Made by a program: the position numbers and the translations under genes. The notes beneath the pieces are model-generated. The model saw nothing but the letters and a program-made list of their open reading frames with translations, was not told the DNA's origin and made no database searches. A stretch of 21,616 nt of DNA from a virus: positions 1 through 21,616 of the IMG/VR virus record IMGVR_UViG_3300042125_000003; one strand, 5' to 3'. Shown in pieces: positions 2,704 to 21,616 of this stretch (position 1 is the stretch's first letter; every line of letters begins with the position of its first letter).

Positions 2704-2836
2704 GTGGTTCAAGGCCGAGATCCTGAGTCTCGGCGAGTGGCGGCAGTACGTCGGGCGCCGTATCGAAGACGCCCTGCACAGGGCCATTGCCGAGTTCGGC
2801 GAAGACGACATCGGTCGTGTAATCGAGGTGCGCTAA
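2690..2836 (+). CDS. Unknown small protein, 48 residues
   Basis: Not recognised. I start it at ATG 2690, 9 bases after AAGAGG (2675-2680); ATG 2681 abuts the ribosome site and ATG/other starts further upstream lack one. The protein is mixed-charge and helical (MTKRKWFKAEILSLGEWRQY, ending in an acidic helix). It overlaps the previous gene by 14 bases and its TAA forms the TAATG overlap with the ligase start at 2836. It could be a small accessory factor or a coupling reading frame that delivers ribosomes to the ligase gene. Confidence 0.6.
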   Translation: MTKRKWFKAEILSLGEWRQYVGRRIEDALHRAIAEFGEDDIGRVIEVR

Positions 2837-6160: not shown

Positions 6161-6181
6161 TTAATAGGGCACCTTATCCTA
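6161..6181 (+). promoter_or_regulatory. Phage RNA polymerase promoter, copy 1
   Basis: First of four identical 21-base elements (core TAATAGGGCACCTTATCCTA, preceded by T). Aligned to T7, it keeps TAATA (-17 to -13), G-11, C-9, C-7 and TAT (-4 to -2). It starts one base after the polymerase stop codon and lies 16 bases before ATG 6198. Strict T7 alignment puts +1 at C6179; a start at A6181 is as likely. Confidence 0.85.
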
Positions 6182-6197
6182 CACCGGGAGAAATTCA

Positions 6198-6422
6198 ATG
6201 ATTAAATATTTAGTAAGAAAGATTAAAAGCTTCTTTACTCCAGTAGTTAAAGAGGTTGTAGTAGAGGTTAAGGTTCTTCGACTTACTGAGAACGAGTATG
6301 CTCAGTTGGAGAAGACCTTACCCAACTCCCTGCTGGGAGGGACCGACACTGCGGAGACAGCAGCGTACAAACTGGGCGTGCAACATGCGCTCAGCAAGAT
6401 CCGCTCTGGCATCGTGATTTAA
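6198..6422 (+). CDS. Unknown small protein, 74 residues, AT-rich 5' end
   Basis: Starts at ATG 6198 after GGGAGAA (6184-6190) and is the first gene behind promoter copy 1. The N terminus is basic and amphipathic (MIKYLVRKIKSFFTPVVKEV), followed by an acidic helix and the end AAYKLGVQHALSKIRSGIVI, a pattern I associate with small conserved proteins near the late region of T7-like phages; no function is known to me. The first 20 codons contain only 15 G or C out of 60 bases and use codons such as TTA and AGA, quite unlike neighbouring genes, while the second half has normal GC-rich codons. The TAA stop is formed by the TAA of promoter copy 2. Confidence 0.75.
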   Translation: MIKYLVRKIKSFFTPVVKEVVVEVKVLRLTENEYAQLEKTLPNSLLGGTDTAETAAYKLGVQHALSKIRSGIVI

Positions 6423-6439
6423 TAGGGCACCTTATCCTA
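6419..6439 (+). promoter_or_regulatory. Phage RNA polymerase promoter, copy 2
   Basis: Identical to copy 1. Its TAA at 6420-6422 is also the stop codon of the 74-residue gene. It is followed at once by AGGAG and a TTG start at 6450. The stretch down to CATTTTG (6446-6452) also resembles the leader behind copy 3. Confidence 0.85.
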
Positions 6440-6449
6440 GGAGAACATT

Positions 6450-6902
6450 TTGATCTATCGAGAATTGAGGGGCGGTGAATTGGTGCCGTCCTGCTTGTCC
6501 GAACGGGCAGTGTCCCGCTTGGCAATGATCTCCCTGTACGAATTACGCGACCGGCATGCCCTCCCGAAAGGCTGGCAGCCGCTCGACCCGCAGGAATGCC
6601 TGAACCGTCTGGTGGCTGCTGATGCGCTGTTTGTGCATGACAGTCAGGGCCGGATCATCTGCTTTGTGGTGGACTCCCCTTGGTTCAGTGATGACCGGGT
6701 AGTGAGCGAGCTGTGGGTGGATGATGGTATCGCACTGGCTGACGTGGTGCTGGCTGCTAAGGCGGCCTGCGTAATGGGCGGTGCCGGACGCTTCGTAATC
6801 GGAACACGAGCAGCGGCGAATGATCGCCACGCCGGTCTGGCCAAACTCTACAGCCGGGAGGGCCTGACCGTATCTACGGTGGAACTTGAGGGCAAGGTAT
6901 GA
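6450..6902 (+). CDS. Unknown protein, 150 residues, TTG start; possible GNAT-like fold
   Basis: The frame opens at TTG 6450 with AGGAG (6439-6443) 6 bases upstream, a good ribosome site; the next in-frame ATG (6525) would remove 25 residues and has no clear site. Strands and helices suggested by the sequence (ALFVHDSQGRIICFVVDSPW, then SELWVDD, an alpha-helical VVLAAKAACVMGG, RFVIGTRAA and LYSREGLTVSTVEL) are reminiscent of an acetyltransferase (GNAT) arrangement, and proteins of that kind are annotated next to phage portal genes. No acetyl-CoA loop is certain, so this is a weak guess. Its end overlaps the next gene by ATGA. Confidence 0.7.
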   Translation: MIYRELRGGELVPSCLSERAVSRLAMISLYELRDRHALPKGWQPLDPQECLNRLVAADALFVHDSQGRIICFVVDSPWFSDDRVVSELWVDDGIALADVVLAAKAACVMGGAGRFVIGTRAAANDRHAGLAKLYSREGLTVSTVELEGKV

Positions 6903-7276
6903 GTGGAGGAATCAAAAAGCTGGTTAACACGGCGGTCAAGGGCTTCTCGCTGGGCGCGGTTGGCGACGGCGGGTGGGCCTTGAACACCGGGGCTGATCCA
7001 GCGGTTAAGGCTGCGAAGCAGGCGGCGCAGCAGCAAGAGCAACAGATGCGCATGCAGCAACAGCAGGCAGCGCAGCAGGCTCAGCAGATGGCGCAGCAGC
7101 AGCAAACTACGGCAGAGCGAGATCGACTCGCTGCACAGGCGAAGGAACAGCAGTCAGCGTCCAACGGCCCTGACCGAGCTGAGATCGAGCTGGCCGATGG
7201 CGACACTTCTTCGCCGCGCAAGAAGTTCCGGGGCCAGATTGGTGGCGCTGGTAAGGCACCGAGCATCCGCGTATGA
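6899..7276 (+). CDS. Small Gln-rich virion/tail-assembly protein (T7 gp6.7/gp7.3-like)
   Basis: A 125-residue protein with an N-terminal basic/hydrophobic part (MSGGIKKLVNTAVKGFSLGA), a Gln-rich central helix (roughly residues 41-73, with long CAG/CAA runs at about 7018-7105), and a basic, Gly-rich end (SSPRKKFRGQIGGAGKAPSI). The short GRKK-type basic box and Gly/Ser tail resemble the C termini of T7 gp6.7 and gp7.3, small virion proteins encoded just before the portal, and the position is the same. Similarity is short, so function (tail assembly or ejection) is inferred. Start ATG 6899 overlaps the previous stop (ATGA), and its own TGA overlaps the portal start. Confidence 0.65.
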   Translation: MSGGIKKLVNTAVKGFSLGAVGDGGWALNTGADPAVKAAKQAAQQQEQQMRMQQQQAAQQAQQMAQQQQTTAERDRLAAQAKEQQSASNGPDRAEIELADGDTSSPRKKFRGQIGGAGKAPSIRV

Positions 7277-8826
7277 CCGACCCTAAAGCCATACACCCCG
7301 ACTCGGGGCGCGGCTGGTGGGAGGAACTGACACGGGAGCGCTCTACCATGATGTCTCGTAAAGAGGCGTATGCCAGAGCGACTATCCCGAGCACCCTCCC
7401 GGACAAGAACTACAACGTACTTAACGATCAGCTCAGCAACGGGGCTACCTCGCTGGGCAACCAAGGCGCAACCAACGTAGTGAACAAGCTGATGCTGGCG
7501 CTGTTCGCTCCGGGCCTGTCGTTCTTCAAGCTGGAAATGGTGGCCAAGGCCAAGGCCGAGTTCCTGCAACAGATGCAGATGCAGGATGACAGCCTTCTCA
7601 CCGACGTACTGGCAGAAGGCGAACGAGAGGCTGGCCGAGCCTTCGAGCAATCCGGTAGCCGTCCCGCGCTGTACGAGGGCCTCGCCGGGCTGGTGTGCGT
7701 AGGCGATGTCCTGATGGACCTCAGCGACACTGCTGCCATCAGCTTTATCACCCTGCATGACTACGCCGTCAAGCGTAATCGCAAGGGCAAGGTGCTGCGC
7801 CTGATCTTCCGGGAGAAGACCCGAGTGGACGATCTGGAGAAGGAGGCGCAGAGCGAGTACCGCAAGGTAATGCCCATGGCCAAGATGCACGACAAGGTGA
7901 CCATCTACACCTGCATCAAGCTGGTCAGTGGCATGTATCGCTCCACGGTGTGGGTGGACGACGTGAAGTTGTCCATTCGACATAGCGGTAAGTGGAAGGA
8001 AGACACCTTGCCGTGGCGTGCGCTGACGTGGCGACTGCCTATTGGTCAGGACTACGGTGTGTCGCTCGCAGAGGACTACGCCAACGATCTGGCTACACAC
8101 GACATGGTAAGCGAGAGCATGGCCGATGGTGGCGTACTGGCCTCCCAATTCCGCTGGGCCTGCAACCCTACTGGGGTGACGCAGCCGGAGGACGTGGAGA
8201 ACAGCCGAAACGGATCGGTAATCGCGGCCAACTCCAATGACCTTGAGCTGATCTTCGCCAACATGGGACAGCAGCTACAGACGGTCATCGCGGTTGAAGA
8301 GGTCTACGCCAGACGCATTGGGCGTGGCTTCCTGCTTAATACCGCAGTGACCCGTAACGCTGAGCGTGTGACGGTGGAAGAGGTGCGTATGCAGGCGCAG
8401 GAGCTGGAAACCAGCTTCGGTGGTGTGTACTCCCGTATGTCGATGGATATGCAGGGGCCTATCAGCCGATGGACCCTCCGCAAAGCTGACATCAGCATTC
8501 AGGGCACCAAGATCGAGCCAACCATCATCACTGGTCTGGATGCACTAAGCCGCACCGCCGAGCAGCAGCGCCTTATGGGCTTCCTACAAGACGTACTCAA
8601 CCTGTCTAACATCCCTCCTGAGACTCGAATCATGCTCAACGAGCAGCCGATCATCAGTGATATGGCAGCAGGCCGTGGCGTAGACCGCCGCAAGTATGTG
8701 GCTGATCCTGAGACGGTGGCTCAACGCCGACAGGAGCAGGCACAGGCGCAAGCCAACGCACAAGCAACCGAAGCCGGCATTCAGGCCGGTGCCCAACAAA
8801 TGGTAAATGAGGACCAAGCACAATGA
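7273..8826 (+). CDS. Portal (head-tail connector) protein, T7 gp8-like
   Basis: A 517-residue portal protein, close to the 536 of T7 gp8. The twelve-subunit ring occupies one capsid vertex, and DNA enters and leaves through it. The N-terminal pattern is typical: ARATIPSTLPD, then NQGATNVVNKLMLALFAPGLSFFKLE, equivalent to the T7 ARGLNNLASKLMLALFP region. The middle contains the expected GVYSRMSMDMQGPISRW segment, and the C terminus is Gln/Ala-rich (residues about 480-517). The start ATG overlaps the upstream stop (ATGA) and its end overlaps the scaffold start the same way, so portal and scaffold are probably translated in a coupled manner. Confidence 0.95.
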   Translation: MTDPKAIHPDSGRGWWEELTRERSTMMSRKEAYARATIPSTLPDKNYNVLNDQLSNGATSLGNQGATNVVNKLMLALFAPGLSFFKLEMVAKAKAEFLQQMQMQDDSLLTDVLAEGEREAGRAFEQSGSRPALYEGLAGLVCVGDVLMDLSDTAAISFITLHDYAVKRNRKGKVLRLIFREKTRVDDLEKEAQSEYRKVMPMAKMHDKVTIYTCIKLVSGMYRSTVWVDDVKLSIRHSGKWKEDTLPWRALTWRLPIGQDYGVSLAEDYANDLATHDMVSESMADGGVLASQFRWACNPTGVTQPEDVENSRNGSVIAANSNDLELIFANMGQQLQTVIAVEEVYARRIGRGFLLNTAVTRNAERVTVEEVRMQAQELETSFGGVYSRMSMDMQGPISRWTLRKADISIQGTKIEPTIITGLDALSRTAEQQRLMGFLQDVLNLSNIPPETRIMLNEQPIISDMAAGRGVDRRKYVADPETVAQRRQEQAQAQANAQATEAGIQAGAQQMVNEDQAQ

Positions 8827-9608
8827 CCATCTTCTCTCTGTTCCGCCACACCCTGATGGATGAAGCCGCCGCTGACGGTGCAGCCTCCGGCGCCGCTGAC
8901 GGTGCGCCAGCCGTCGGAACCACCACTACCCTGCCCGGCGCCAAACCCGCTCCAGACGCCGCCGCAGGGGCTGCTGATACCGGCGCCGACGAGGACGTGC
9001 TGGGCAAGGCAGGCTTCGGTGTGGTCGAGGGTGATCCGGGCCTCAACTACGCCTTGAACTTCCTCGCCAGCAACGGCTTCACCGCCGACAGCCCAAGCGT
9101 CAATGCCGCCCTGAACGGCGATTTCGGCCTGCTCAAGGCTGAGCTGGCACAGAAGGGTGCCGCAGGCTGGGAGCAGGCACTGGGCCTCGCAGAGCAGTCC
9201 TATGGCCGCCATCAGGAGCGCATCGCTGCCGATAACAAGGCAGTGGGTGAGGTCGTGCTGGGCATCGCAGAACAGCTGGGCGTGGACTGGGAAGCCGCCG
9301 CTGGTCACATGGCCTCGGCACCGCAGGAAGAGCGCGACGCGATCAACCAGCTGCTGGCCAGCCCGAAGACCGCGCACATCGCCGCCCAGTTCGTGGCGCT
9401 CAACTTCATCAACAACGGCACCGGCGACATCACCCCGGCAGCCCGTGCGGCTGGGGAAGGCTCGCAGGCCCTCGGCGCTCTCGGTGCTGCGGGCGGGCCG
9501 CTGACCCGCGCCGAATTCACCAAGCAGATGGGCGAACTCCGTCGCAAGCTGGGTGACGACTACCTGAACTCGACCGAGGCGCAGGCGCTGTACGCCCGAC
9601 TGGGCTGA
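8823..9608 (+). CDS. Capsid scaffolding protein (T7 gp9-like)
   Basis: A 261-residue acidic, Ala/Gly-rich protein between portal and major capsid genes, the standard place of the scaffold that shapes the procapsid and is then released. The N-terminal third is low complexity (AADGAASGAADGAP; the 14 bases at 8868-8881 recur at 8892-8905). The centre is helical, and the end PLTRAEFTKQMGELRRKLG...EAQALYARLG fits the basic capsid-binding helix-loop-helix typical of T7-like scaffolds. Length is near T7 gp9 (307), slightly short. The start overlaps the portal stop (ATGA). The TGA stop is the first base group of an inverted repeat at 9606. Confidence 0.88.
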   Translation: MTIFSLFRHTLMDEAAADGAASGAADGAPAVGTTTTLPGAKPAPDAAAGAADTGADEDVLGKAGFGVVEGDPGLNYALNFLASNGFTADSPSVNAALNGDFGLLKAELAQKGAAGWEQALGLAEQSYGRHQERIAADNKAVGEVVLGIAEQLGVDWEAAAGHMASAPQEERDAINQLLASPKTAHIAAQFVALNFINNGTGDITPAARAAGEGSQALGALGAAGGPLTRAEFTKQMGELRRKLGDDYLNSTEAQALYARLG

Positions 9609-9622
9609 TCAATATTTGATCA
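9606..9622 (+). repeat. Inverted repeat at scaffold stop
   Basis: TGATCAA, a 3-base TAT loop, then TTGATCA: a perfect 7-bp stem containing the scaffold stop codon. It lies 4 bases before a second, stronger hairpin that overlaps promoter copy 3. AT-rich, so likely weak as RNA structure; it might affect transcript processing or be a protein-binding site. Confidence 0.55.
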
Positions 9623-9626
9623 AAAT

Positions 9627-9650
9627 GGTGCCCTAAATTAATAGGGCACC
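9627..9650 (+). promoter_or_regulatory. Hairpin overlapping the capsid promoter
   Basis: GGTGCCCTA (9627-9635), a 6-base AATTAA loop, and TAGGGCACC (9642-9650) form a perfect 9-bp stem. The right arm is part of promoter copy 3. The left arm is absent from the other three copies. In read-through RNA it would form a stable stem followed by UUAU, so it could attenuate or mark processing of upstream transcripts just before the capsid promoter restarts transcription. Confidence 0.7.
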
Positions 9651-9658
9651 TTATCCTA
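9638..9658 (+). promoter_or_regulatory. Phage RNA polymerase promoter, copy 3 (capsid)
   Basis: Identical 21-base element in the 87-base gap between scaffold and capsid genes, equivalent in place to the strong phi10 promoter of T7. The leader after it (AGAAACCATTTTG) resembles that after copy 2 at 10 of 13 positions. The capsid ribosome site AAGGAG follows at 9684-9689. Confidence 0.87.
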
Positions 9659-9695
9659 AGAAACCATTTTGCTGTACCCCACCAAGGAGCTGTAT

Positions 9696-10682
9696 ATGTC
9701 TCGTGATACCTTTAACGTAACTCGCCCCAACGCCAAACTCGGCGGTGCTGATCCGTTCGAGCTGGTGCTGGAAGAATTCGCCGGTATGGTCGAAGAGTCG
9801 ATGCAGACTCGCTCGGTCACCGAAGGCTGGGTCGAAATGAAGACCGTCAAGGGCACCGCCACCGTCACCAAGGACGCGATTGGCGAATCGACCCTGCAAG
9901 TGCTGGAGCCGGGCAAGACCCCGGACGGCACCGCGAACCAGTTCTCCGACAACTCGGTGACCGTGAAGACCGTCATTCTGGCTCGCTCGGCGCTCCCGAT
10001 TCTCGACGTGTTCCAGACCAAGTACGACGTTCGCAAGAAGATCGGTAACGAGCACGGCAAGAAGATGGCCAAGTTCCGCGATGCCGCTCTGCTGGTCCAG
10101 CTGGCCAAGGCCGGTCTGGCTGCCGACTCGAAGTACGGCGCTCTGCCGGGCCACCACGGCGGTACGCAAGTCTCGCTCGCCGCTGCCGGTGACGAGAACG
10201 ACCCGGCCAAGCTGTTCCGCGCCATCAACCGCCTGCTGGCGCAGATGGAAGAGAAGGACGTAATCCCGCAGGAAGACGGCCACGCCATCTTCGTCCGTCC
10301 GGCAGTGTACTACGCACTGATGGAAGCTGAGCAGATCGTCAACGGCGACTACCTCACCTCGGAAGGCAACAAGGTGCAGGGCGTACCGATCATCAAGGCG
10401 CTGGGCGTACCAATCATCAAGACCAACAACATGCCGCACACCAACACCGTCACCACCCCTGACGACGTTGCGACCATGATGGGCGGTGACTACGCCGGTG
10501 ACTTCTCGAAAGTCCTGATGATGCTGGCTTCCCCGAAGGCTCTGCTGGCTGGCGAGACTATCTCGCTGACCTCCGATGTCTTCTACGACAAGCTGTCCAA
10601 GTCGCACTACGTTGACGCGCACATGGCCTTCGCAGCCACCACTGACCGCCACGAACACGCTGGCGTCATCCTGACCAAGTAA
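9696..10682 (+). CDS. Major capsid protein (T7 gp10-like)
   Basis: A 328-residue capsid protein of the T7/phiKMV type, starting at ATG 9696, 6 bases after AAGGAG; the frame is open upstream to a TTG at 9669, but that lacks a ribosome site. HK97-fold capsid subunits build the icosahedral head. Features: an N-terminal arm (MSRDTFNVTRPNAKLGGAD), the long spine helix with EEFAGMVEESM, the central region with ILDVFQTKYDVRKKIGNEHGKKMA, and a C-terminal domain with HAIFVRPAVYYALMEAE and GVPIIKTNNMPHTN. The codons are the most GC-biased and regular in the window (many CTG, GGC, ACC), as expected for the most highly expressed gene. It has its own promoter and is followed by a strong terminator. No second, frameshifted capsid form is evident. 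Confidence 0.95.
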   Translation: MSRDTFNVTRPNAKLGGADPFELVLEEFAGMVEESMQTRSVTEGWVEMKTVKGTATVTKDAIGESTLQVLEPGKTPDGTANQFSDNSVTVKTVILARSALPILDVFQTKYDVRKKIGNEHGKKMAKFRDAALLVQLAKAGLAADSKYGALPGHHGGTQVSLAAAGDENDPAKLFRAINRLLAQMEEKDVIPQEDGHAIFVRPAVYYALMEAEQIVNGDYLTSEGNKVQGVPIIKALGVPIIKTNNMPHTNTVTTPDDVATMMGGDYAGDFSKVLMMLASPKALLAGETISLTSDVFYDKLSKSHYVDAHMAFAATTDRHEHAGVILTK

Positions 10683-10691
10683 GGTCCAACC

Positions 10692-10728
10692 ATTCCCCAA
10701 GGAGCCTAGTGCCCTTGGGGAATTTTTT
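10692..10728 (+). terminator. Intrinsic terminator after the capsid gene
   Basis: ATTCCCCAAGG (10692-10702) pairs perfectly with CCTTGGGGAAT (10713-10723): an 11-bp stem with a 10-base loop, followed by six T (10723-10728). It lies 9 bases after the capsid stop, the same position as T-phi of T7, and would trim most late transcripts there while allowing partial read-through to the tail genes. Confidence 0.93.
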
Positions 10729-10740
10729 GCTGAGGTACTG

Positions 10741-11319
10741 ATGAACATCACGCAGCTGACGGTGGTGAACGAATGCCTCGCCTCCATGGGTGAGGAACCT
10801 ATCAACTCCTTGGCAGAGGACAACGCCTTCGTTAACTCCGCCAACTTCGCATTCGAGAACGCCAACCTGAACGAGCAATCGGTGGGGTGGTGGTTCAACA
10901 AAGAGAGTATCCTGATTCGCCCGGACACCAAGGGCGAGTATGTGGTTCCATCCGACGTGATCGACCTGTGGGTAGATGCTAACCCTCGCTGGCTCGCTGT
11001 TCGCAGCTCCCGTCTGTATGACACCAGCAAAGGCGAGCGCCTAGTGGGCACAGCGCCCCAACGGGCAGAGGTCATGCGGCTTCTGGCTTTCGATGACCTG
11101 CCTCTTATCATGAAGCGGGTAGTCAAGGCAGCCACTGTGTTGCAGTTCCAGAAGAGCTACGACGGTGACGCGCAGAAGATCAAGGACGCAAAGGAGGAAT
11201 ACGCCTTTGCCAGACAAACAGCCCGTACTCAGCACATCCGCGCCGTGGGCGCGAACTTCTCCACACGCGCGGAGAACTCGATGTACTCTGACTATGGCCG
11301 ACTGAGGACGCCCCGGTGA
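10741..11319 (+). CDS. Tail tubular protein A (T7 gp11-like)
   Basis: A 192-residue protein, very near the 196 of T7 gp11, in the conserved place after the capsid gene. Tail tubular protein A forms the ring that joins portal and tail nozzle. The opening MNITQLTVVNECLASMGEEPINSL, the WWFNKES pattern, and YVVPSDVIDLWVD are typical of the family, as is the helical EYAFARQTARTQHI near the end. Start ATG follows GAGG (10732-10735) by 5 bases. The stop overlaps the GTG of the next gene (GTGA), suggesting coupled production of the two tail proteins. Confidence 0.93.
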   Translation: MNITQLTVVNECLASMGEEPINSLAEDNAFVNSANFAFENANLNEQSVGWWFNKESILIRPDTKGEYVVPSDVIDLWVDANPRWLAVRSSRLYDTSKGERLVGTAPQRAEVMRLLAFDDLPLIMKRVVKAATVLQFQKSYDGDAQKIKDAKEEYAFARQTARTQHIRAVGANFSTRAENSMYSDYGRLRTPR

Positions 11320-13793
11320 GAGTCAGCGACAACTATCAATCGGTAATCCGTGGCGTGAGTGAGCAGGTGCCGCACGACCGCATACCCGGCCAGCACTGGG
11401 ATCAGGACAACATGACCTCAGACCCAGTTAGGGGCCTGAGCCGCCGTCACGGTAGTGTCCAGCGCTACGTGATGTCCCTGCCATTCCCGATCACCGACGT
11501 AGAGCGTAAGGATGCCAGTTGCCGAGCAGAGCACACCGTGTTCCTTGAGGGCGGAGAGTGGGCATTCATGCCGCGCAATGCCCCGGCTCCCGGTAGCAGG
11601 CTGCCGCCACTGATCCTAGTGGACAAGGACGGGCAGAACTTCATGGAGGTGGTGTACGACAGTCCCGCCACAGAGGCACAGGTAGGCGAGGGCATCACCA
11701 GCGTGACTGCCGCTGGCCGGCTGGTGCTGCTGTCCTCGGCCAAGTACCCAGTGGAAACCACTGTAACCAAGAGCATGGACGCAACCAGCGACAAGCACTG
11801 TGTGTGGGTTCGTGGCGGCGGCTATTCTCGGTCGTTCTCGGTCACCGTGGCGTCAGGCAATGACGACACCATGACCTATGTGTACAAGACAATGACCTCC
11901 TACTACGAGGGCACCTTGGACACCACCACCATTCCATGGACTTCTGACGGCTCCTATCAGAAGAAGGTGAACGACGCCACCAACGCTTACAACTCCAAGG
12001 TCAACCAGCACATCGCTAAGTCGGCTGCGGACATCACGCCGGAGAACATCGCCAAGCGTCTGTGGGAGCAGATGGAGAAGGAGAACCCCGGCATGGCGGA
12101 GCTACACGGGGCCTACATCCTTATCACCAAAGCAGACACCGTGGTGACGGTGGACGACGGCGGCAACGGGGAGTACATCCGGGTCACCTCTTTGGAGGTA
12201 ACGGCACCGGAACTGGTCACTGCGCAGCATTTGCACGGCAAGGTGGTCAAGGTAGTACCTAAGCAGGCCGGGGCCTTACCGTACTACCTCAAGGCGGAAG
12301 GGCAAGGACATACCAGCTTCGGGGACGTGATCTGGCGGGAGACTGCTGGTGACCTGATCACCATGGACTGGGTGTTCTTCGTAGGCATCTTCGACGAGGG
12401 CAAGCTGTGGCTGGCCAAGTCGCCAGCGGAGCTGGGTGCATTGCGCCCTGCACTGACCATCCCTAACTTCTCGCAAGCGAGCAGCGGGGACAGTGAGTCC
12501 AACCCTAGACCTGAATTCTTCGAGAAGGTCATCACGCATATGCGGATGTTCCAAGATCGACTGATGATCGTGTCGGGGTCCACTGTGTTCCTGTCTAAGT
12601 CTGGCGACTACTTCAACTTCTTCCGCAAGAGTGTGCTTACGCTCGGTGACGACGACCCTATCGAGGTGTTCGCACAGGGCACAGAGGATGACGTGATCAC
12701 CAGCGGTGTGCAGATTGACCGCAACGTAGTCCTCTGCGGGCAGCGGTTCCAGTACATGGTGCCGGGCCGAGAAATGATGACGCCGAAGAATCCCTACATT
12801 GGTGTGCAGGCCACCTACGAGGGTGCCAACATAGTGCCGCACACTAGCGCAGGCTCTGTACTGTTCTTCTGTCAGCGGCGCGAGCGCAGGCTCACACTAC
12901 AGCGGATGCAACCCGCAGTAATGGCTGACAGGCTGGACGCCATGGACGCCAGCTCCCAGCTAGACGGATACCTCACTGGTACGCCACGTCAGCTTGTGAG
13001 TATGACGGCGCCCGGCGCAGTGTTCCTACGCACACAGGAGCTGACTAACGGCTTCTATGTGTACAGCTGGCTGGACAGCGAGGACAACTCTGAGCGGCTG
13101 TTTGACAGCTGGTCGCGGTGGACCTTCTCTGCCGAGCTGGGCGTACTGGCAGGCATCACCGTCGATGACTCCGGTCTGCTGGCCGTGACGCTACGTGATA
13201 CCAAGGACGGCCCTGCGCTAGTTCTGGACCGTTTCACTCGTGAGACGGCGCCATCGGAGCTGCCCTACTTCGACAGTATCACCACACTGGAGGACTCCAA
13301 TCACGTCAACTCGGGACACGCTGCCGCCTTTGGGGCTGCCAGCGAGAACTACCTGCTTGGCCTACCACTGGCCAATGTGTCTCAGCTGGTAGAGCAGTTC
13401 CCCGGCGAGCTGGGCGAGCTGTATGTGGGCGCGGAGTACGACAGTCACTTCACCCTGACTAGTCCCTATGTCCGTGACCGGAACGACAAGATCATCTTGG
13501 ACGCTCGGGTGACCATCAGCAAGCTGGTAGTGTCCTTGTCTAACAGCGCCGCTATGCGGGGGTCGGTATCGACTGACATGGGCAAGACGTGGAAGGTCAG
13601 CAAGTCGTGGGTCAGTCGTAAGGCGGGAAGCTGGGTACTGAACACGCAGAACATTGCAGAAGAGGAAACCGTAACCATCCCCGTTATGAAGGAGAACAAA
13701 GCGTACCGTTGCCGGATCAGCTCTCGTAGCTGGCTGCCAATGACCGTGGCGTCTGTGGAATGGACGGGCCAAATGTTCACTAGCAGGAGGTAA
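11316..13793 (+). CDS. Tail tubular protein B / tail nozzle (T7 gp12-like), GTG start
   Basis: An 825-residue protein (T7 gp12 is 794) that forms the tail nozzle. The N terminus (VIRGVSEQVPHDRIPGQHWDQDNM, split here by VPHDR) follows the family pattern of a Gly-x-SxQ segment, then a region in which the protein commits to the virion; SRRHG matches the KRPP-type turn of T7. The centre contains FPITDVERKDAS, a beta-rich repeat, and FEKVITHMRMFQDRLMIVSGSTVFLSKSGDYFNFF, a strongly conserved nozzle sequence (compare T7 FxNRLGFLSxENVVLSxxxxYFxF). It starts at GTG 11316 overlapping the previous stop, with GAGGA (11303-11307) 8 bases upstream. No frameshift is seen. Confidence 0.93.
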   Translation: MRVSDNYQSVIRGVSEQVPHDRIPGQHWDQDNMTSDPVRGLSRRHGSVQRYVMSLPFPITDVERKDASCRAEHTVFLEGGEWAFMPRNAPAPGSRLPPLILVDKDGQNFMEVVYDSPATEAQVGEGITSVTAAGRLVLLSSAKYPVETTVTKSMDATSDKHCVWVRGGGYSRSFSVTVASGNDDTMTYVYKTMTSYYEGTLDTTTIPWTSDGSYQKKVNDATNAYNSKVNQHIAKSAADITPENIAKRLWEQMEKENPGMAELHGAYILITKADTVVTVDDGGNGEYIRVTSLEVTAPELVTAQHLHGKVVKVVPKQAGALPYYLKAEGQGHTSFGDVIWRETAGDLITMDWVFFVGIFDEGKLWLAKSPAELGALRPALTIPNFSQASSGDSESNPRPEFFEKVITHMRMFQDRLMIVSGSTVFLSKSGDYFNFFRKSVLTLGDDDPIEVFAQGTEDDVITSGVQIDRNVVLCGQRFQYMVPGREMMTPKNPYIGVQATYEGANIVPHTSAGSVLFFCQRRERRLTLQRMQPAVMADRLDAMDASSQLDGYLTGTPRQLVSMTAPGAVFLRTQELTNGFYVYSWLDSEDNSERLFDSWSRWTFSAELGVLAGITVDDSGLLAVTLRDTKDGPALVLDRFTRETAPSELPYFDSITTLEDSNHVNSGHAAAFGAASENYLLGLPLANVSQLVEQFPGELGELYVGAEYDSHFTLTSPYVRDRNDKIILDARVTISKLVVSLSNSAAMRGSVSTDMGKTWKVSKSWVSRKAGSWVLNTQNIAEEETVTIPVMKENKAYRCRISSRSWLPMTVASVEWTGQMFTSRR

Positions 13794-13798
13794 AGCCT

Positions 13799-14506
13799 AT
13801 GATCTGGTTGGCAGCTGCGATGGGGGCCATGGCCCTCAAGCAGGGCCTTGACGCAAAGAATCAGGCCAAGGCGGATCAAATCACCGCCAAGTCCACCGCC
13901 AAGGTGGAGAACATGCGTCGAGACATCGACAACATGATGTCCAAGGCCAAAGGTGACCTTGCCCGTTTCCAGCAGGCGCGTAGCAACAAGTACGCGCTCC
14001 AGTCTGGCGGACGAGCAGAGGACACCGCGACGGTAAACATGCTGCGCCTGTCCGATCAGGCTGTGCGCGGCTCCATTGAAATGCGTATCGCCGCCGCCGA
14101 AGAGGCGGGCGCACTGGCTGCACGGGTGGGCTTCGCGGGAGTAGGTGGAGGTTCGGTAGAAATGCTGAACAACACCAACGCAGTGCGGCAGCAGCGCGCT
14201 CGGGAGTTGTCGGACACCATGACCGATACCCAGCTCTTTGATATGGGTGAGCAAAAGGCGTTTACTCGCGAGCAGACCATCCTCGGACTGGACGACATTC
14301 AGTTCGCAGACGGTATGAACTTCATGCGTGCTCAAGAGCAGTACATCAAGCAGCCTTCGTGGTTCGAAGTAGGGGCCAACGCTGCTATGGCCTTCGGCAC
14401 CAGCTATGCCAGCATGGGTGGCTTCAAGGGCTGGGGCAGTGGCACACCGAAGATCAGCGGTGACATTCAGGCTGTAGGCAACATGCCAAACAGCGCATTA
14501 GCATAA
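13799..14506 (+). CDS. Internal virion protein (T7 gp14-like)
   Basis: A 235-residue, Ala- and Met-rich helical protein in the position of T7 gp14 (196 residues), which is ejected into the outer membrane as part of the DNA-ejection channel. It opens with a hydrophobic segment (MIWLAAAMGAMALKQG), then a long charged helix (residues about 20-60), a Gly-rich turn around VGFAGVGGGSVEM, and a helical end with AMAFGTSYASMGG. AGGAGG (13785-13790) lies 8 bases before ATG 13799. Identity of sequence to T7 is low, so the call depends on order, size and composition. Confidence 0.8.
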   Translation: MIWLAAAMGAMALKQGLDAKNQAKADQITAKSTAKVENMRRDIDNMMSKAKGDLARFQQARSNKYALQSGGRAEDTATVNMLRLSDQAVRGSIEMRIAAAEEAGALAARVGFAGVGGGSVEMLNNTNAVRQQRARELSDTMTDTQLFDMGEQKAFTREQTILGLDDIQFADGMNFMRAQEQYIKQPSWFEVGANAAMAFGTSYASMGGFKGWGSGTPKISGDIQAVGNMPNSALA

Positions 14507-14515
14507 GGAGGACAC

Positions 14516-16786
14516 ATGGCACAGACCAATCTGCAACAGCCGGGCGGCTATGCTATCGAGGCCGGACAGGCCGTGATGCAGCAACAGCAGCCCGGCGTGC
14601 AGCTTGGCCGCACCGGGATTCAAGGGTCCACCGCAGTACAACAGGCGGACCAGCAGCACAGACAGATTGTCGATACGGGCACATCTGACTTGCTGATGAA
14701 GCTAGGCGGCAAGCTGCTGGAGCCACACATTCAGCGAGTCCAGACACAGCAGTTTCTGGAAGGCGCGCAGCGCGTTGCACAAGGCGAAGCTCTGAAAGAT
14801 ATCGTGGATGAAGATCCGTGGTATACGCAGATCTTTGGGCCGTCCAGCTCTACACAGGGCGCACGGGCCGTAGCCCAAATGAAGGGCGTAGACGACTACC
14901 TCACCGACGTAGCCAACAACATGCCCGAGCTACAGAAGCTCAGCTCTGCCGACTTCGGTAAGCAGATCACTGGCAAGATGCAGCAGTTCCTGACGGGTGA
15001 TGCTGTGGCGGATACTGCCATCCAGTTGAAGATGGTGGAGGCCAGCGGCGGCCTGTTCAAGGCGCACACCAAGGCGCACTACAAGTGGACTCAGGACACC
15101 ATGCAGTCGCAGATCGTCAGCTACATGCAGACAGGTGGAGCCAAGCTCAAGGCGATGACTGGTCAGCTGCTGGAAGGGACCATGACGCAGAAGGACTACG
15201 ACGAGGCCAAAGCGGTATACGTCGGCAACCTAATGCCATTGGACGGGCAGTCCCCAGCCTCTTACTGGGAGGCTATCGAGTCCGCTACCATTGACGCACT
15301 GGCCACTGGTAACCACCACGCCGCGAACGCTATCTTCGACTCGGGCATCTTCAACAACGCCCCAGTGGAGCAGCGCAAGAAGATGATGGACGCTCGCCAC
15401 AAGTACGAGGCGCAGACGCAGGAGACTGCGGGCTTTGCCGAGTACGGTCCGCGAATCGGTCAGCTCAAGGGTATGGCGGCAGCCGGTCAACTGACCGGTA
15501 ACCAGATCCTGGCCGAGGTGGACAAGATCAACAACGACTACAAGCTGCGTTACGGTATCGACCGCCCGCTGTTCAAGCGCAAGGAAATGGAAGCCATCTT
15601 GTCTGGCAACATCGCCAGTATCTACCGGCGACAGGAGCAGGACCAGCGGGACTTGGCCCGCGAGGGCCGGGCGGACCGTCGAGAAGCTGCCAAAGAAACC
15701 GTTAAGGTGGAAATGGAAGCTCGTAAGCAGGCGCAGCTGGTGCAGATCATTCAGGCCGGTGGCGGCAACATGGCGGCTCTGGCGGGCCACTCGCAGACCG
15801 AGATTGACAACGCCGTGTATACGGGCGCCACGGTCATCGCCACGCAGGGCGGTAACGTCGGCAAGTTCCTAGTGCAGCAGTACAACGATGGCGGCGCGCA
15901 CGTCAACCCTCTGTATCGCAACCAGTTGCAGGCGGGTATGCGTGCGGCCAAGATGGAAGGTTACGCCGGTGAGGCTATGGATCGTTCCTACGCCATGTAC
16001 AAACAGCTCAGTGCGGAGACTGGCGGCAAGGCCACGGCCATGGCGTATCTCGGCGATGACGCTGTGCGCATGATGAAGTACGATCAGTTTATCCAAGGAG
16101 GTAAGCTCAAGCCGGAGGTAGCCTATCAGCTCGCATTCGGGGAGCCGCTGGACACTAGCCGCAAGTCATCCGATAAGGAGATCGGGGAGGCCATCGTCAA
16201 GACAGTGGACAAGGATCAGCCGGGGTTCTGGTCTAAGAAGTTATTGGATACCACCGAGCTGACAGACCAGTCTAAGCGTGTACTGACTACTGCGGTAGGG
16301 CGCAACTACGACCTGCTGGCAGGTACGGGTATGGACGACAAGGCGGCTATGGCCACCGCGCTGGACGTGGCCAAAAAGGAAATGGATGTTGTAGGGCCGT
16401 ACATCGTGGACCGTGGGCCGGATCGTAAGCCGATCTACCAGCTTATCGGTGCGGACGAGGCCAAGGCCGGGGAGGTGTTTACCCGCTTCCTCAATGAGCG
16501 AGCGCGGGCCAACGGAGTGGAATCCGACCTACCGGGCGGCGTGCAGACTGATAAGATCAGGTTCTCTGCGGACCTGATCACCAGTGGGCCTCTTCCCGCA
16601 GTGCGTAACTGGTTTGATCGGAAGTGGGGTGACCAGCCTAGCGTAATGATCAATCGGCTACCGGACCAGAACGGCGTAGGCGTGTTCGCCGTCACCGTGG
16701 TGGAGCCGGACGGTAACACTAAGTTCTTCCCAATCACCAGCGACGAAGTGCGCAGCTACTACGAGAAGTCGAAGGACTTCAAGTAA
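14516..16786 (+). CDS. Internal virion protein (T7 gp15-like)
   Basis: A 756-residue protein, close to the 747 of T7 gp15, in the same place. In T7 this forms the periplasmic tube of the ejectosome. The N-terminal 60 residues are Gln/Gly-rich and flexible, and the rest is predicted mainly helical (for example SGNIASIYRRQEQDQRDLAREGR). No enzymatic motif is visible. The start ATG follows AAGGAGG (14505-14511) by 4 bases. The gene ends just before a UUCG hairpin and the gp16-like gene. Function is inferred from order and size. Confidence 0.8.
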   Translation: MAQTNLQQPGGYAIEAGQAVMQQQQPGVQLGRTGIQGSTAVQQADQQHRQIVDTGTSDLLMKLGGKLLEPHIQRVQTQQFLEGAQRVAQGEALKDIVDEDPWYTQIFGPSSSTQGARAVAQMKGVDDYLTDVANNMPELQKLSSADFGKQITGKMQQFLTGDAVADTAIQLKMVEASGGLFKAHTKAHYKWTQDTMQSQIVSYMQTGGAKLKAMTGQLLEGTMTQKDYDEAKAVYVGNLMPLDGQSPASYWEAIESATIDALATGNHHAANAIFDSGIFNNAPVEQRKKMMDARHKYEAQTQETAGFAEYGPRIGQLKGMAAAGQLTGNQILAEVDKINNDYKLRYGIDRPLFKRKEMEAILSGNIASIYRRQEQDQRDLAREGRADRREAAKETVKVEMEARKQAQLVQIIQAGGGNMAALAGHSQTEIDNAVYTGATVIATQGGNVGKFLVQQYNDGGAHVNPLYRNQLQAGMRAAKMEGYAGEAMDRSYAMYKQLSAETGGKATAMAYLGDDAVRMMKYDQFIQGGKLKPEVAYQLAFGEPLDTSRKSSDKEIGEAIVKTVDKDQPGFWSKKLLDTTELTDQSKRVLTTAVGRNYDLLAGTGMDDKAAMATALDVAKKEMDVVGPYIVDRGPDRKPIYQLIGADEAKAGEVFTRFLNERARANGVESDLPGGVQTDKIRFSADLITSGPLPAVRNWFDRKWGDQPSVMINRLPDQNGVGVFAVTVVEPDGNTKFFPITSDEVRSYYEKSKDFK

Positions 16787-16795
16787 CGTCTAGTG

Positions 16796-16817
16796 AAGGG
16801 CATCTTCGGGTGCCCTT
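16796..16817 (+). terminator. UUCG stem-loop between internal virion genes
   Basis: AAGGGCATC, loop TTCG, GGTGCCCTT: a 9-bp stem with one G-U pair closed by a C(UUCG)G tetraloop, an unusually stable RNA hairpin. Only three T follow, so full termination is doubtful; attenuation, mRNA 3'-end protection or processing is more likely. It fills most of the 55-base gap after the gp15-like gene. Confidence 0.6.
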
Positions 16818-16841
16818 TGCAGAACTTACTCAGGAGGCAAC

Positions 16842-19800
16842 ATGGATTTGATGAATACCAAGCCTGCCGACATCAAGGCAGCAACAGACCAACGCAAGAC
16901 CGACCGCCTTGAGCAGAAGGTACTCGCCAAGCCAAAGTACACTCCGGCAGAGCAGCAGGCTGTGGAGAACGTGCAGACCGCTACCATCTTCGCTGGCGTA
17001 GCTGCGGGCCTTGATGCTCGACAGGCCGCAGCCGCTGCCGTCAAAGTACGGCAAGCCACCATCGGTAGCGAAGAGTCCGTCAATGCATTGGTGCAGACGT
17101 TGCCCGGCGATTCGGACATCGTGGGCACTGCCAAGCAGATCGCCGGTGCGCAGGACATTCAGGAGAAGGCCAAGGGCAAAGCCCAGTGGACCACCTTTCT
17201 GGATCAGGCAGAGGCGGGCTTTGTCGAGCTTACAGCGCTGCCGCAGTTGCTGCGGACCCTCGACCGCGCAGACTTTGAACCGGACGCCAACTTCGACTAC
17301 ATGGCCATCCGAGACAAGGTAGAGTTCGGGATGGCCAACGAGGACCGTACATGGCTGCGCGAGAGCGTAAGCCAAGAAGACCTCGACAGCCGTCTGGCGG
17401 TGCTCAAGACCAAGCAGGAGAACCTGCAAACGCTGGGCGCGCACGGCGAGGGTATGGCCCTTGCGGCGGGGATCACCGGCGGGTTCATGGACCCGGTAGG
17501 CTGGGTGGCGGGTATGGGCGTAGGCAAGGCCGCACAGCTGGCGGGTGTGGGTAGCCGCATCGTGGCCGCACAGGGTCAGCTGGGCCGGGCCATTGTGTAC
17601 GGGGCAGGTGAGGGCATCACCGGTTCGGTGCTCACTACAGCGGCTCTGGATGCAGCAGGCGGGCACGTCACCTACAACGACTACGTTATGTCAGCGGCAT
17701 TCGGTGCAGTGTTCGGTCAACTAGGGCTGCTGGCGTACAAGCGCCCAGTGAATACTACCGAGGCCGTACCGCCTGCACAGCCGGGCGAGTTCGACTTCAC
17801 CGGACCGCTGCCTGCCAGTGCGCAGGAAGCCGCGCAGGATCTGATGGCGCGGGCGCAGAAGTTCAACGAAGACATCTACGCTGAGGCGCAGGGCCGGGCA
17901 CCGGCTGACGCCACTCCAGAACAGATCCGGGAGGCCGCCGACGACATCATGCGGGAGCGCGCAGACAACCTGCATCGCACCGTGTTTGCGGAGGTTCCCG
18001 AGGGTGACCGCTTCTTCCCTGCATACGATCTGGACGTACGGGAGGACGGTACTGTACCGCCACTGGACGAGGTGATGCGACCATCCACAGAGCGAATCGC
18101 AGCACAGGATCGCTGGGGTATCAACCAGCACACGGTGGAGAACGATGCAGAGCGGAAGATGCTTGGCGAGCTGGCCGCAAGGGCCGACTCGTGGGCAGCT
18201 GCCAACCCATTCGATCAGGCGCGTCTGGATAGCGTGCTGGGCCGCATCCCGTGGCTGTCCTCTACCGGGCTGACCTTGGCACGTAGCCAGAACCCGGTTG
18301 CCCGCATGATCGCGGGTACTCTGCTGGAGTCCACAACGGGCGCCACCGGGCGCCGCCGCACAGCCGCCGTAAGCAAGACCATGCGAGAGCGGGTCTACAT
18401 GGAGGATCTGGTAGGGTATGAAGAGCAATACAAGATGTGGCGGGCTAAGAACGGGGGCAGCGCCTATCGTGACGTCATTGGCAGTGATACACGGGCACGA
18501 TTTGATCGGCTTGTTGCCAGTGAGCGCGAGAACCGTAGACTCGGTGTGCGCACTGATGCTGACCAGCATGTGCGTGTGGCTAGTGATCACCTTGACGCTG
18601 GCTACGATAGAATGCGTCGTGACCAGCAGACAGTTGGCACAATCGGTGCCGAGCGATTGGGCGACACCTCTATCGGCTATGCTCACCGAAGCCTCTCCCC
18701 GTCGTGGGTAATGCAAGCCAGTAACGCGGAAATCGAGGCTCTGGCCTCCCGCCTTGCCGTGCAGCTCCAAGACGGCTGGGGTGATGTGCAGTTCGCTCGG
18801 CAGATCGCCACTCGCTACATCGAAAGAGCGCGGACTACAGCCTACGGGGGTACAGCGATACCCGCCAACATGGCTAGCCCACAGGCAGCAGAGGTTCTGC
18901 GAGACGTTCTGCGCTCTATGAACGTAGCCGATGCAGATATCAACCTAGCCATGGGCCGGTTCAGCCGGGGCGGGGCAGCGCACACCAAGAAACGTCTGGA
19001 ACTGGACCTCACTGAGCAGATCGACCTGCCCGGTGGCCGTAGTTTCCCCATGATGAACGCCTTCGAGACTGATCAGGCCAGCCTCTACATGCAGTATGCT
19101 CGCCGTGTGAGTGGCGATATCGCCCTTACACAGTACGGCGTACACGGTGATCAGGGCATGAAGCTGCTGCGCAAGGCTATGGAGTACGGGCCGGACGGTA
19201 AGCGCGCCACGGCGCATGAAATGGAGGCCTTCGATCAGATCTACGCGGAGTTCTACGGACGTGCGCTTGAGGGCACTGGCAACAAGCACCTCGGTAACTT
19301 GCGTTTGCTGACTGCTGCGAGCCGACTGGGGGGCATGGCCTTCACGCAGTTCGCTGAAATGGCCAACGCCGTGGCCCTGCTGGGTGTAGGCGGTGCCTTG
19401 AAGATGGTAGGCAGGCTGCCGGGCCTGATAGCGGACATCCACGCCGGGCGTCCAAGCGAGCTGCTGGCGTCCATCGAGCAGATCGGCGGGCCTCTTGGGC
19501 AGGATCACCGGGTGATCTTCCCGTTCCAAGAACCCAACGACATCCGCATCTACGGGCGAGACAGTCTGAACACCTTTGATCGCATAATTCGGGCGGGTAG
19601 CAACGCGGTGCCGTGGCTCTCGGGCTGGCATCACATGCATGCTGCACAGGTCCGAGGCATCAGTGAGCAGATCGTTCACAAGTCCATGCGGTACATCCGT
19701 AATGGGGAAGAGAACGCGGCGCTGACCTCCATGGGTATCAGTCCTGAAATGGCTGCCATCATGCGGGCAGAGCTTCCGAAGATCGCCAAGTTCGATGACG

Positions 19801-20423
19801 AAGGCAATCTGGTGGCACTGGACCTCACCCGGTCGCAGGAATTCGCTACCATCAGTGAGTATGTGCAGGCCGTGCATCGCGGCAGCAAGCAGATCATTCA
19901 GGGCACCTACATTGGCGAGACTGGCAAGTGGGCGCACAATGATCTGATGCGGCTGCTGGTGCAGTTCCGGTCGTTCACTCTCACCTCTATGGAGAAGCAG
20001 TGGACCCGCCAGCGTACCGACGTGGGCACGGCCAAGGCGTTCGGTATTCTGGCCGGGCAGATGGCGTTTGCTCTGCCAATCCACATGAGCCGCGTTATGA
20101 TCAACGCCACCGGGCGGGAGGACCGAGAAGAGTACGTCAAGAAGCAGCTTGATCCACAGATGCTGGCACGGGCTGTGCTGAACTACACCTCTATCAGCGG
20201 TCTGGCCGGTGACATCTTCGACGCCGGTGCGGTGCTGGCCGGTGGCGAGGTGAGTGGCGTGCGCTCCGGGTCCAGCTCGGCGCTCGGTGCTGTGCCGGGC
20301 CTCGGCTATGTGGAGTCTGCCGCTAAGGTGGCGCGTGACAAAGACCCTCGGGAAGCGATTCGTATGCTACCCGGAGGGAACCTGCCCTTCCTGACTCCGG
20401 TGGTTAACCACCTGACAGATTAA
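16842..20423 (+). CDS. Internal virion protein (T7 gp16-like), no visible lytic domain
   Basis: A 1193-residue protein, the largest in the window, in the T7 gp16 (1318 residues) position. In T7 this protein is ejected to span the cell envelope and help pull DNA in. Visible features: a helical N terminus without a signal peptide; a hydrophobic, Gly/Ala-rich stretch (residues about 205-300, including MDPVGWVAGMGVGKAAQLAG and AAFGAVFGQLGLLAY) that may insert in a membrane; and the conserved C-terminal motif RLLVQFRSFTLTSMEKQWTR (about 1037-1056), common in gp16-like proteins. T7 gp16 starts with a lytic transglycosylase domain of about 150 residues; I see no such ES...GAxGxxQ pattern at either end. 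AGGAGG (16832-16837) lies 4 bases before the ATG. The stop TAA is part of promoter copy 4. Confidence 0.85.
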   Translation: MDLMNTKPADIKAATDQRKTDRLEQKVLAKPKYTPAEQQAVENVQTATIFAGVAAGLDARQAAAAAVKVRQATIGSEESVNALVQTLPGDSDIVGTAKQIAGAQDIQEKAKGKAQWTTFLDQAEAGFVELTALPQLLRTLDRADFEPDANFDYMAIRDKVEFGMANEDRTWLRESVSQEDLDSRLAVLKTKQENLQTLGAHGEGMALAAGITGGFMDPVGWVAGMGVGKAAQLAGVGSRIVAAQGQLGRAIVYGAGEGITGSVLTTAALDAAGGHVTYNDYVMSAAFGAVFGQLGLLAYKRPVNTTEAVPPAQPGEFDFTGPLPASAQEAAQDLMARAQKFNEDIYAEAQGRAPADATPEQIREAADDIMRERADNLHRTVFAEVPEGDRFFPAYDLDVREDGTVPPLDEVMRPSTERIAAQDRWGINQHTVENDAERKMLGELAARADSWAAANPFDQARLDSVLGRIPWLSSTGLTLARSQNPVARMIAGTLLESTTGATGRRRTAAVSKTMRERVYMEDLVGYEEQYKMWRAKNGGSAYRDVIGSDTRARFDRLVASERENRRLGVRTDADQHVRVASDHLDAGYDRMRRDQQTVGTIGAERLGDTSIGYAHRSLSPSWVMQASNAEIEALASRLAVQLQDGWGDVQFARQIATRYIERARTTAYGGTAIPANMASPQAAEVLRDVLRSMNVADADINLAMGRFSRGGAAHTKKRLELDLTEQIDLPGGRSFPMMNAFETDQASLYMQYARRVSGDIALTQYGVHGDQGMKLLRKAMEYGPDGKRATAHEMEAFDQIYAEFYGRALEGTGNKHLGNLRLLTAASRLGGMAFTQFAEMANAVALLGVGGALKMVGRLPGLIADIHAGRPSELLASIEQIGGPLGQDHRVIFPFQEPNDIRIYGRDSLNTFDRIIRAGSNAVPWLSGWHHMHAAQVRGISEQIVHKSMRYIRNGEENAALTSMGISPEMAAIMRAELPKIAKFDDEGNLVALDLTRSQEFATISEYVQAVHRGSKQIIQGTYIGETGKWAHNDLMRLLVQFRSFTLTSMEKQWTRQRTDVGTAKAFGILAGQMAFALPIHMSRVMINATGREDREEYVKKQLDPQMLARAVLNYTSISGLAGDIFDAGAVLAGGEVSGVRSGSSSALGAVPGLGYVESAAKVARDKDPREAIRMLPGGNLPFLTPVVNHLTD
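20399..20412 (+). repeat. Perfect 14-bp palindrome before promoter copy 4
   Basis: GGTGGTTAACCACC is its own reverse complement and lies inside the last codons of the gp16-like gene, ending 7 bases before promoter copy 4. It also encodes protein, so it may be fortuitous; possible roles are a binding site or a read-through hairpin. Confidence 0.5.
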
Positions 20424-20440
20424 TAGGGCACCTTATCCTA
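20420..20440 (+). promoter_or_regulatory. Phage RNA polymerase promoter, copy 4 (tail fibre)
   Basis: Identical 21-base element. Its TAA at 20421-20423 is the stop codon of the 1193-residue gene. It gives the tail fibre gene its own transcription, as in other phages where fibre and lysis genes follow a separate late promoter. Confidence 0.87.
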
Positions 20441-20454
20441 TCCAACCAAACAAT

Positions 20455-20470
20455 GCGGCCTGCGGGCCGC
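20455..20470 (+). promoter_or_regulatory. GC-rich 5' leader hairpin of the tail fibre transcript
   Basis: GCGGCC, loop TGCG, GGCCGC: a fully G/C 6-bp stem in the leader between promoter copy 4 and the ribosome site AAGGA (20472-20476). It could protect the 5' end or be a processing site. No T-run follows, so it is not an intrinsic terminator. Confidence 0.6.
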
Positions 20471-20483
20471 TAAGGATTACAGA

Positions 20484-21616
20484 ATGAGCACACTGCACGC
20501 AGTGAACTTCTTCCCCGGCGACGGTGTGACCACCCAGTGGGACTTCCAGTTTGACGGTGTGAACCCGGACAACGCCTCGGGCACTAAGCCATACCTCTAC
20601 GACAAGAACGTCAAGGTGCAGGAGATCTGGCGGGATGCCGACGGAGTGCAGCACGTCGTCCAACGTGACGTGGAGCTGATCAGCGCTGACACCGTGCGAG
20701 TGCTCGGCGATGCCATCCCGGTGGGCCATGAGGTCAAGGTCTACCGCGAGACGGAGAACCGCTACCCGCTGGTAGACTACCGCGACCGGCAGACCGTGAG
20801 CGAAGCTGACCTCGATCTCTCCGCACGGCAGACCCTGTTCGTCACCATGGAGACGTTCGATCAGTCCACATTGGCCGTGGAGTCCGCCAACCGTGCGGAA
20901 GAAGTTGCCGCGCAAGCCAACGCAACGGCCAACGAGGCCAACGATACGGCGGACAACGCCCTCGTAATCGCGCAAGACGCCAACGCCAAGTCCGACACGG
21001 CCATTGCCGCATCCGCTGATGCGGTGACCCGTTCCGAGACTGCTTTGCAGAACGCCAATCTGGCATTGCAGGCAGCGCAGGACGTAGAGATCCGCGCCGA
21101 CGAGGCCGCACAGTCGGCACTACAGGCCGAGGCCGCCGCTAACGCTGCCCGCGAGTTCGCAGAAGAGGCGGTGTCTACTGCCAACGGCGTGGATGGTAAA
21201 GCCACCCTCGCACTTTCGCAGTCCAGTCAGGCGCAAACTCAGGCTGCGCAGGCTCTGGCGACAGCCAACGGGGTAGATGCCAAAGCTACCGACGCATTGG
21301 CCGCTGCTGACGCCGCTCTGCTAGTGGCGAATGACGCCTCCACCAAGGCCGACGAAGCCAAGTCGGTGGCTGACGGGGTGGATGCTAAGGCTGATTCTGC
21401 CATCGCCACTGCTAACGTCGCACTCACCGCCGCTAACCAAGCGACCACAGACGTAGCTGCTATGGATGTTCGCGTGGTGGCTGCTCAGGATACCGCAGAC
21501 GGCGCTGTCGCCGTGAATGACCAGCAGGCTGTTGAGCTGCTGGGTCTGCACGCTACCGACACCCGGCAGGACGGTGAGCTGGAGGCGCTGCGCGTTGCCA
21601 TGTTACCACGTAAACC
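20484..21616 (+). CDS. Tail fibre protein, N-terminal part (T7 gp17-like); continues past right edge
   Basis: The frame opens at ATG 20484, 7 bases after AAGGA (20472-20476), and stays open for 377 codons to the window edge. Residues 1 to about 130 match the conserved N-terminal domain that anchors fibres to the tail in T7-like phages: a short start (MSTLHAVNFFPGDGVTTQWD), then FDGVNPDNASGTKPYLYDKNVKV (split by the NAS turn), VYRETENRYPLVDYRDRQTVSEADLD, and ARQTLFVTMETFDQ. From about residue 130 onward the protein becomes an Ala/Asn/Asp-rich helical rod with heptad-spaced repeats, a trimeric coiled-coil shaft. The receptor-binding tip is outside the window. Own promoter (copy 4) and leader hairpin lie upstream. 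Confidence 0.92.
   Translation, partial: MSTLHAVNFFPGDGVTTQWDFQFDGVNPDNASGTKPYLYDKNVKVQEIWRDADGVQHVVQRDVELISADTVRVLGDAIPVGHEVKVYRETENRYPLVDYRDRQTVSEADLDLSARQTLFVTMETFDQSTLAVESANRAEEVAAQANATANEANDTADNALVIAQDANAKSDTAIAASADAVTRSETALQNANLALQAAQDVEIRADEAAQSALQAEAAANAAREFAEEAVSTANGVDGKATLALSQSSQAQTQAAQALATANGVDAKATDALAAADAALLVANDASTKADEAKSVADGVDAKADSAIATANVALTAANQATTDVAAMDVRVVAAQDTADGAVAVNDQQAVELLGLHATDTRQDGELEALRVAMLPRK
21177..21383 (+). repeat. Coding repeats of the tail fibre shaft
   Basis: The sequence TANGVD begins at 21177 and 21261, and the variant VADGVD at 21366; each is followed by [GA]KA[TD]. The spacings are 28 and 35 residues, exact multiples of seven, as expected for units of a trimeric coiled coil grown by duplication. 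Confidence 0.75.

Follow-up and report, generated by a model that had tools for sequence, protein, structure and literature searches.

Four identical 21-base sequences as predicted late promoters of a VSW-3-like RNA polymerase in a viral genome fragment

The viral DNA stretch of 21,616 bases analyzed in this work (the window) carries four exact copies of the sequence TTAATAGGGCACCTTATCCTA, all of them on the + strand, which on the basis of sequence comparison are very probably the late promoters of the phage's own T7-type single-subunit RNA polymerase (RNAP). Promoter function, start site and starting-nucleotide preference were established by others for phage VSW-3; their carry-over to the phage of the window, as well as the order of events, is what we infer. 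The RNAP gene would presumably be transcribed by the host enzyme. The resulting RNAP would bind the A+T stretch TAATA (-17 to -13), read GGGCACC (-12 to -6) with its specificity loop and melt TTAT, and rightward transcripts would then start at four places, one just behind the RNAP gene and the others ahead of the second small gene, the capsid gene and the tail fibre gene.

Position and gene setting of the four copies

The copies are located at 6161-6181, 6419-6439, 9638-9658 and 20420-20440. The original prediction had described them as the same 21 bases occurring four times at gene junctions on one strand, and all matches indeed proved to be exact, with no further similar site within 3 mismatches in the window. 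In 100 dinucleotide shuffles of the window no match was obtained, and none is expected by chance. The count of four refers to the 21,616-base record, which as a whole is identical with the window and is probably a fragment, as related genomes comprise ~40 kb. Outside the 21 bases the sequences of the copies are unlike on both sides, and the base that follows the 21-mer is C, G, A or T, in agreement with the earlier observation that the bases past the core vary. Among the other IMG/VR contigs, the exact 18-mer was detected only in L027 (47 kb; 899-916, minus strand); with a single copy and without an RNAP match, this occurrence was judged to be due to chance.

The gene order of the window is phiKMV-like: genes for endonuclease VII (346-762), a phosphoesterase (1232-2209), a protein whose N-terminal domain is that of a dATP/dGTP diphosphohydrolase (2209-2703) and a ligase (within 2704-3762) are followed by the RNAP gene, three small genes, portal (7273-8826), scaffold (8823-9608), capsid and tail genes. 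As in phiKMV-like genomes, the RNAP gene thus stands between the genes for DNA metabolism and those for structural proteins. Copy 1 (J1) begins 2 nt past the RNAP stop (6159) and lies ahead of the region from 6198 onward, the first gene of which encodes 74 aa (6198-6422, +; phrog_5112, function unknown). Copy 2 (J1b) overlaps the TAA of this ORF and is situated ahead of 6450 onward, with an ORF of 150 aa as the first gene behind it (6450-6902, +, TTG start as listed; phrog_19910, function unknown). The latter ORF occupies the place of the phiKMV acetyltransferase (Rac) gene and gave no Pfam match. Copy 3 (J2) lies between the scaffold stop (9608) and the start of the major capsid protein gene (9693-10682, +; phrog_267, 7.7e-75; PF21703). 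Tail and internal virion genes separate the capsid gene from the tail fibre gene, and copy 4 (J3) shares bases with the TAA of the ORF for the internal virion protein (16842-20423), so that two of the four copies (6419 and 20420) overlap a stop codon. Behind copy 4 follows the tail fibre gene, which is open at the fragment end (20484-21614, +; phrog_13173, 1.1e-48). Scans of the window against Rfam and for tRNAs revealed no matches.

That the 21-mers are instead sigma-70 promoters of the host has a negligible probability. A scan for -35 and -10 hexamers at a spacing of 16-18 did yield one sigma-70-like match overlapping copy 4 (20412-20439), but this is the only one of the four copies to be overlapped and the matches occur at chance rate (five found, 4.8 expected).

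The polymerase and its relation to VSW-3

The putative cognate RNAP is encoded at 3763-6159 (+, GTG start) and comprises 798 aa. It was assigned by PF00940 (3.8e-86), phrog_414 and alignment; it matches the T7-type family, and the catalytic residues D537, K631, Y639 and D812 (T7 numbering) are all present. The protein is 72% identical over its full length to the RNAP of Pseudomonas phage VSW-3, with a clade support of 0.98. VSW-3 (Napahaivirus) is also the nearest annotated phage, parts of the DNA being ~76% identical. Its promoter, TTAATTGGGCCACCTATA|GTA with the start at GTA, was characterized by in vitro transcription, 5'-RACE, truncation and binding, and the published set consists of four exact 21-mers (PMC9624206). 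In the VSW-3 record the promoter is found at 13579, 17122, 28006 and 34846. A fifth copy, which deviates by 1-2 bases and is absent from the four of the paper, was observed behind the first small gene (13841-13860, TAATCGGGCCACCTATAGTA).

Copies 1 to 4 of the window are syntenic with the VSW-3 sites at 13579, 13841, 17122 and 28006, at the same four junctions, and are spaced by 258, 3219 and 10,782 bases vs. 261, 3282 and 10,884 bases in VSW-3. The equivalent of the VSW-3 site at 34846 would fall past the right end of the fragment, where, by analogy with VSW-3 and L037, a fifth copy is probably located. Ungapped, the VSW-3 promoter core agrees with the 21-mer in 15 of 21 bases; positions -8/-7 and the TATA segment are unlike, as in other members of the clade. 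Synteny with proven promoters, together with this agreement and the likeness of the RNAPs, supports the original assignment of the 21-mers to the phage polymerase.

The specificity-loop region of the RNAP (aa 660-696; 5740-5850, +) contains K673, E675, R683 and R685, which in the alignment correspond to positions 746, 748, 756 and 758 of T7 RNAP. In T7 RNAP these positions contact promoter bases. A comparison of eight VSW-3-type genomes showed that the loop varies in step with the promoter, with K, E, R and R at these positions in all seven phages with GGGCAC, and L, K, R and R in VSW-3 with GGGCCAC. The four GGGCACC phages first compared agree, with VSW-3 differing, in 14 RNAP columns; T7 residues 746 and 748 account for two of these (hypergeometric P 0.0017 for two or more of the four contact positions among the 14 columns). 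Three GGGCAC phages found after this calculation fit the pattern too. VSW-3 branches within the GGGCAC group in the RNAP tree, so that the pattern is not accounted for by kinship, and, going by the tree and the alignment, the loop and promoter state of VSW-3 is best read as derived. Since Providencia phage PSTNGR1 combines the same four loop residues (KERR) with another motif, these four residues do not suffice to define the specificity.

The search for the motif in the rest of the window and in related phages, which had been recommended together with the prediction, led to no further site in the window and to about 20 relatives carrying a repeated motif of their own at the same junctions in a similar layout, mostly of the form ATTG... 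A promoter set that can be seen in the sequence is thus the norm within the VSW-3-like clade. The earlier statement that such a set is out of the ordinary applies to phiKMV and KP34; it does not apply to this clade, which includes the phage of the window. Among the phages closest to the window, the motifs are ATAGGGCACCTATAACTA in L036, ATAGGGCACCCATAACTA in L058 (second copy ACAGGG...), ATTGGGCACCTTATCTA in L037 (five copies, all +, in one 42-kb record), ATTGGGCACCCATAG in L026, ATTGGGCACCTATAGACTA in L059 and ATTGGGCACTTATAGACTA in L060. Of the other relatives, Andromeda carries ATTGGGCCACTATAGCA, Luke-3 ATTGCCGCCCTATAGG and KBC54 ATTGGAGCCCTATTGG. The junction of copy 2 is likewise occupied in L026, L036, L037 and L058. 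In several phages the stop codon TAA of the RNAP gene forms the first part of the promoter.

Three observations made in these genomes are added here. In L041 (12882), L042 (2906) and L043 (2755) the second promoter copy is apparently not intergenic but falls within the first part of a coding region. The 46-kb contig L012, which encodes a distant RNAP, contains AGTCTACTATAATAGAC many times (at 4378, 5624, 7029, 9946 and 12624, and also on the opposite strand), possibly a promoter or regulatory set of its own. Finally, many promoters across the phages are followed by a GAAACC(A/G)TTT-like stretch (e.g., 9659-9669 in the window and from 17143 on in VSW-3), which is perhaps an early transcribed or leader element.

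Inverted repeats at the promoter sites

Copy 3 is part of a perfect 9-bp inverted repeat, GGTGCCCTA-aattaa-TAGGGCACC (9627-9650), the 3' arm of which is the recognition part of the promoter. No inverted repeat centred on the promoter was found at copies 1, 2 and 4 of the window. Fourteen phages have a promoter at the capsid junction; stems of 7-11 bp are present in nine of them and a stem of 6 bp in a tenth (PollyC). The upstream arm fits the promoter of its own phage better than those of the others: the observed total was reached in 0 of 20,000 permutations, and in 26-73 of 20,000 when only one VSW-3-type phage was kept. L059 and L060 display a matched double change in the stem, from G...C to A...T. 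Deviations from Watson-Crick pairing in the 14 capsid-junction repeats comprise seven G-U and no A-C pairs, which points to + strand RNA and not to a DNA site.

These data bear on two further explanations. The 21-mers might be operator sites for a DNA-binding protein of phage or host, the repeat at copy 3 being a dimer site, and both the perfect identity of the 21 bases and the perfect 9-bp repeat would fit this. We nevertheless regard it as very unlikely, as the other three copies have no promoter-centred repeat, promoter activity is proven for the homologous sequence of VSW-3 and the G-U deviations argue for RNA of the + strand. Alternatively, the 21-mers could be leader, processing or stability elements common to the late mRNAs, for which the promoter as one arm of the predicted capsid-junction hairpin and the GAAACC-like leader sequence just downstream in several phages can be cited. 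In VSW-3, however, the repeated block is located upstream of the start and would hence be absent from transcripts starting there, and the hairpin occurs at some junctions only, which makes this explanation extremely unlikely for the set as a whole. A role as mRNA element may be added to the promoter role at copy 3, and is then not an alternative for all four copies.

With the 21-mers read as promoters, the capsid-junction hairpin may mark a site at which the upstream message is processed or may shield its 3' end. That it acts as an intrinsic terminator on rightward transcripts is unlikely, as no T-run follows the 3' arm and the one terminator-like prediction concerns the minus strand. Nor does the hairpin belong to the promoters in general: copies 1, 2 and 4 of the window lack it, and the signal at the RNAP-junction sites is weak (338 of 20,000 permutations, mainly due to KBC54). 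At the tail fibre junction such a hairpin is present in about half of the phages, the window not being among them. Our literature searches (open papers) returned no report of an overlap of promoter and hairpin, nor is one described in the VSW-3 paper (PMC9624206).

Additional repeats were detected nearby. The inverted repeat TGATCAA-tat-TTGATCA (9606-9622) begins in the scaffold stop codon, just before the repeat at 9627-9650, and is near-identical in VSW-3 (TGATCA-atttc-TGATCA). The leader downstream of copy 4 contains the hairpin GCGGCC-tgcg-GGCCGC (20455-20470), which VSW-3 has too. Just before copy 4, the palindrome GGTGGTTAACCACC (20399-20412) lies within the closing codons of the gene for the internal virion protein; a similar GGTG...CACC is found near the tail fibre promoter of L037.

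Start base and comparison with known systems

Counted from the VSW-3 start, which is the only mapped one in the clade, all four copies of the window read CTA from +1 to +3, the A being the next purine. L037 has T at the start position, preceded by C and followed by A; all other ATTG-type members of the clade examined have a purine at this position or one base before. As the position homologous to the VSW-3 start lacks a purine, the start base is a puzzle. His 784 of T7 RNAP acts in start-site choice; it is conserved in all polymerases compared and was thus ruled out as the reason for the odd +1. The VSW-3 RNAP is unable to start with C or U (PMC9624206), which, given the C at +1, counts against the promoter reading; the Syn5 RNAP accepts C at +1 with 52% of the yield obtained with G (PMC3950665). 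The original prediction of C or A at +1, unlike the G of T7, stands in so far as C occupies the VSW-3-homologous position and A follows at +3, and the odds between these two as start base are about even. We tentatively propose, with the chances judged to be somewhat against it, a combined reading: in the phage of the window and in L037 (nine exact copies between the two) transcription would start at a pyrimidine or at an A 1-2 bases downstream, and in many phages of the group the capsid promoter, often also the tail fibre promoter, would be the 3' arm of an RNA hairpin and would serve the upstream mRNA as well, in its processing or as a 3'-end element.

The VSW-3 RNAP is of interest for the production of RNA with little double-stranded by-product (PMC9624206). 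Close relatives of VSW-3 with their matched promoters could provide ready pairs for orthogonal expression and constitute a natural experiment in the recognition of positions -8/-7 by the specificity loop. The absent purine at +1 would make start-site choice in these enzymes directly testable, and the overlap of promoter and hairpin suggests a simple route by which a phage might join transcript ends to promoter sites.

The position-by-position alignment to the T7 promoter given in the original prediction was correct. With the T7 class III promoter the 21-mer shares TAATA at -17 to -13, G-11, C-9, C-7 and TAT at -4 to -2, and the enzymes are of the same family; six of 17 upstream positions are unlike, however, five of them at -12 to -5, the window has no G at +1 and the RNAPs are 32% identical. 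The promoter of the RNAP of cyanophage Syn5, ATTGGGCACCCGTAA (PMC3950665), contains the identical GGGCACC at -12 to -6 in the same register. The Syn5 RNAP, in contrast, is only 27.5% identical, with an unlike loop, another position in the tree and another gene order, so that this match reflects convergence or chance and not close kinship. KP34 and phiKMV/LUZ19 resemble the window in the location of the RNAP gene, which follows the DNA metabolism genes and precedes the structural ones, and in KP34 a promoter (TAATGTTACAGGAGTA; PMC6834552) is situated directly behind the RNAP gene, but in both groups the motif is unrelated, copies are few and the RNAPs are 26-28% identical.

PollyC, Luke-3, Andromeda, KBC54, SVOphi44, Luutsna-6 and PSTNGR1 have predicted promoters at the same junctions with an ATTG-type core, whereas the recognition bases are particular to each phage. 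The promoter set of the window is a further set of the VSW-3 kind, a kind which is already known. Common to both are TTAAT at -18 to -14, GGGC at -12 to -9 and RNAPs of equal length. They differ in that the window has GGGCACCTTATC where VSW-3 has GGGCCACCTATA, C instead of G at +1, and K/E instead of L/K in the loop at T7 positions 746/748.
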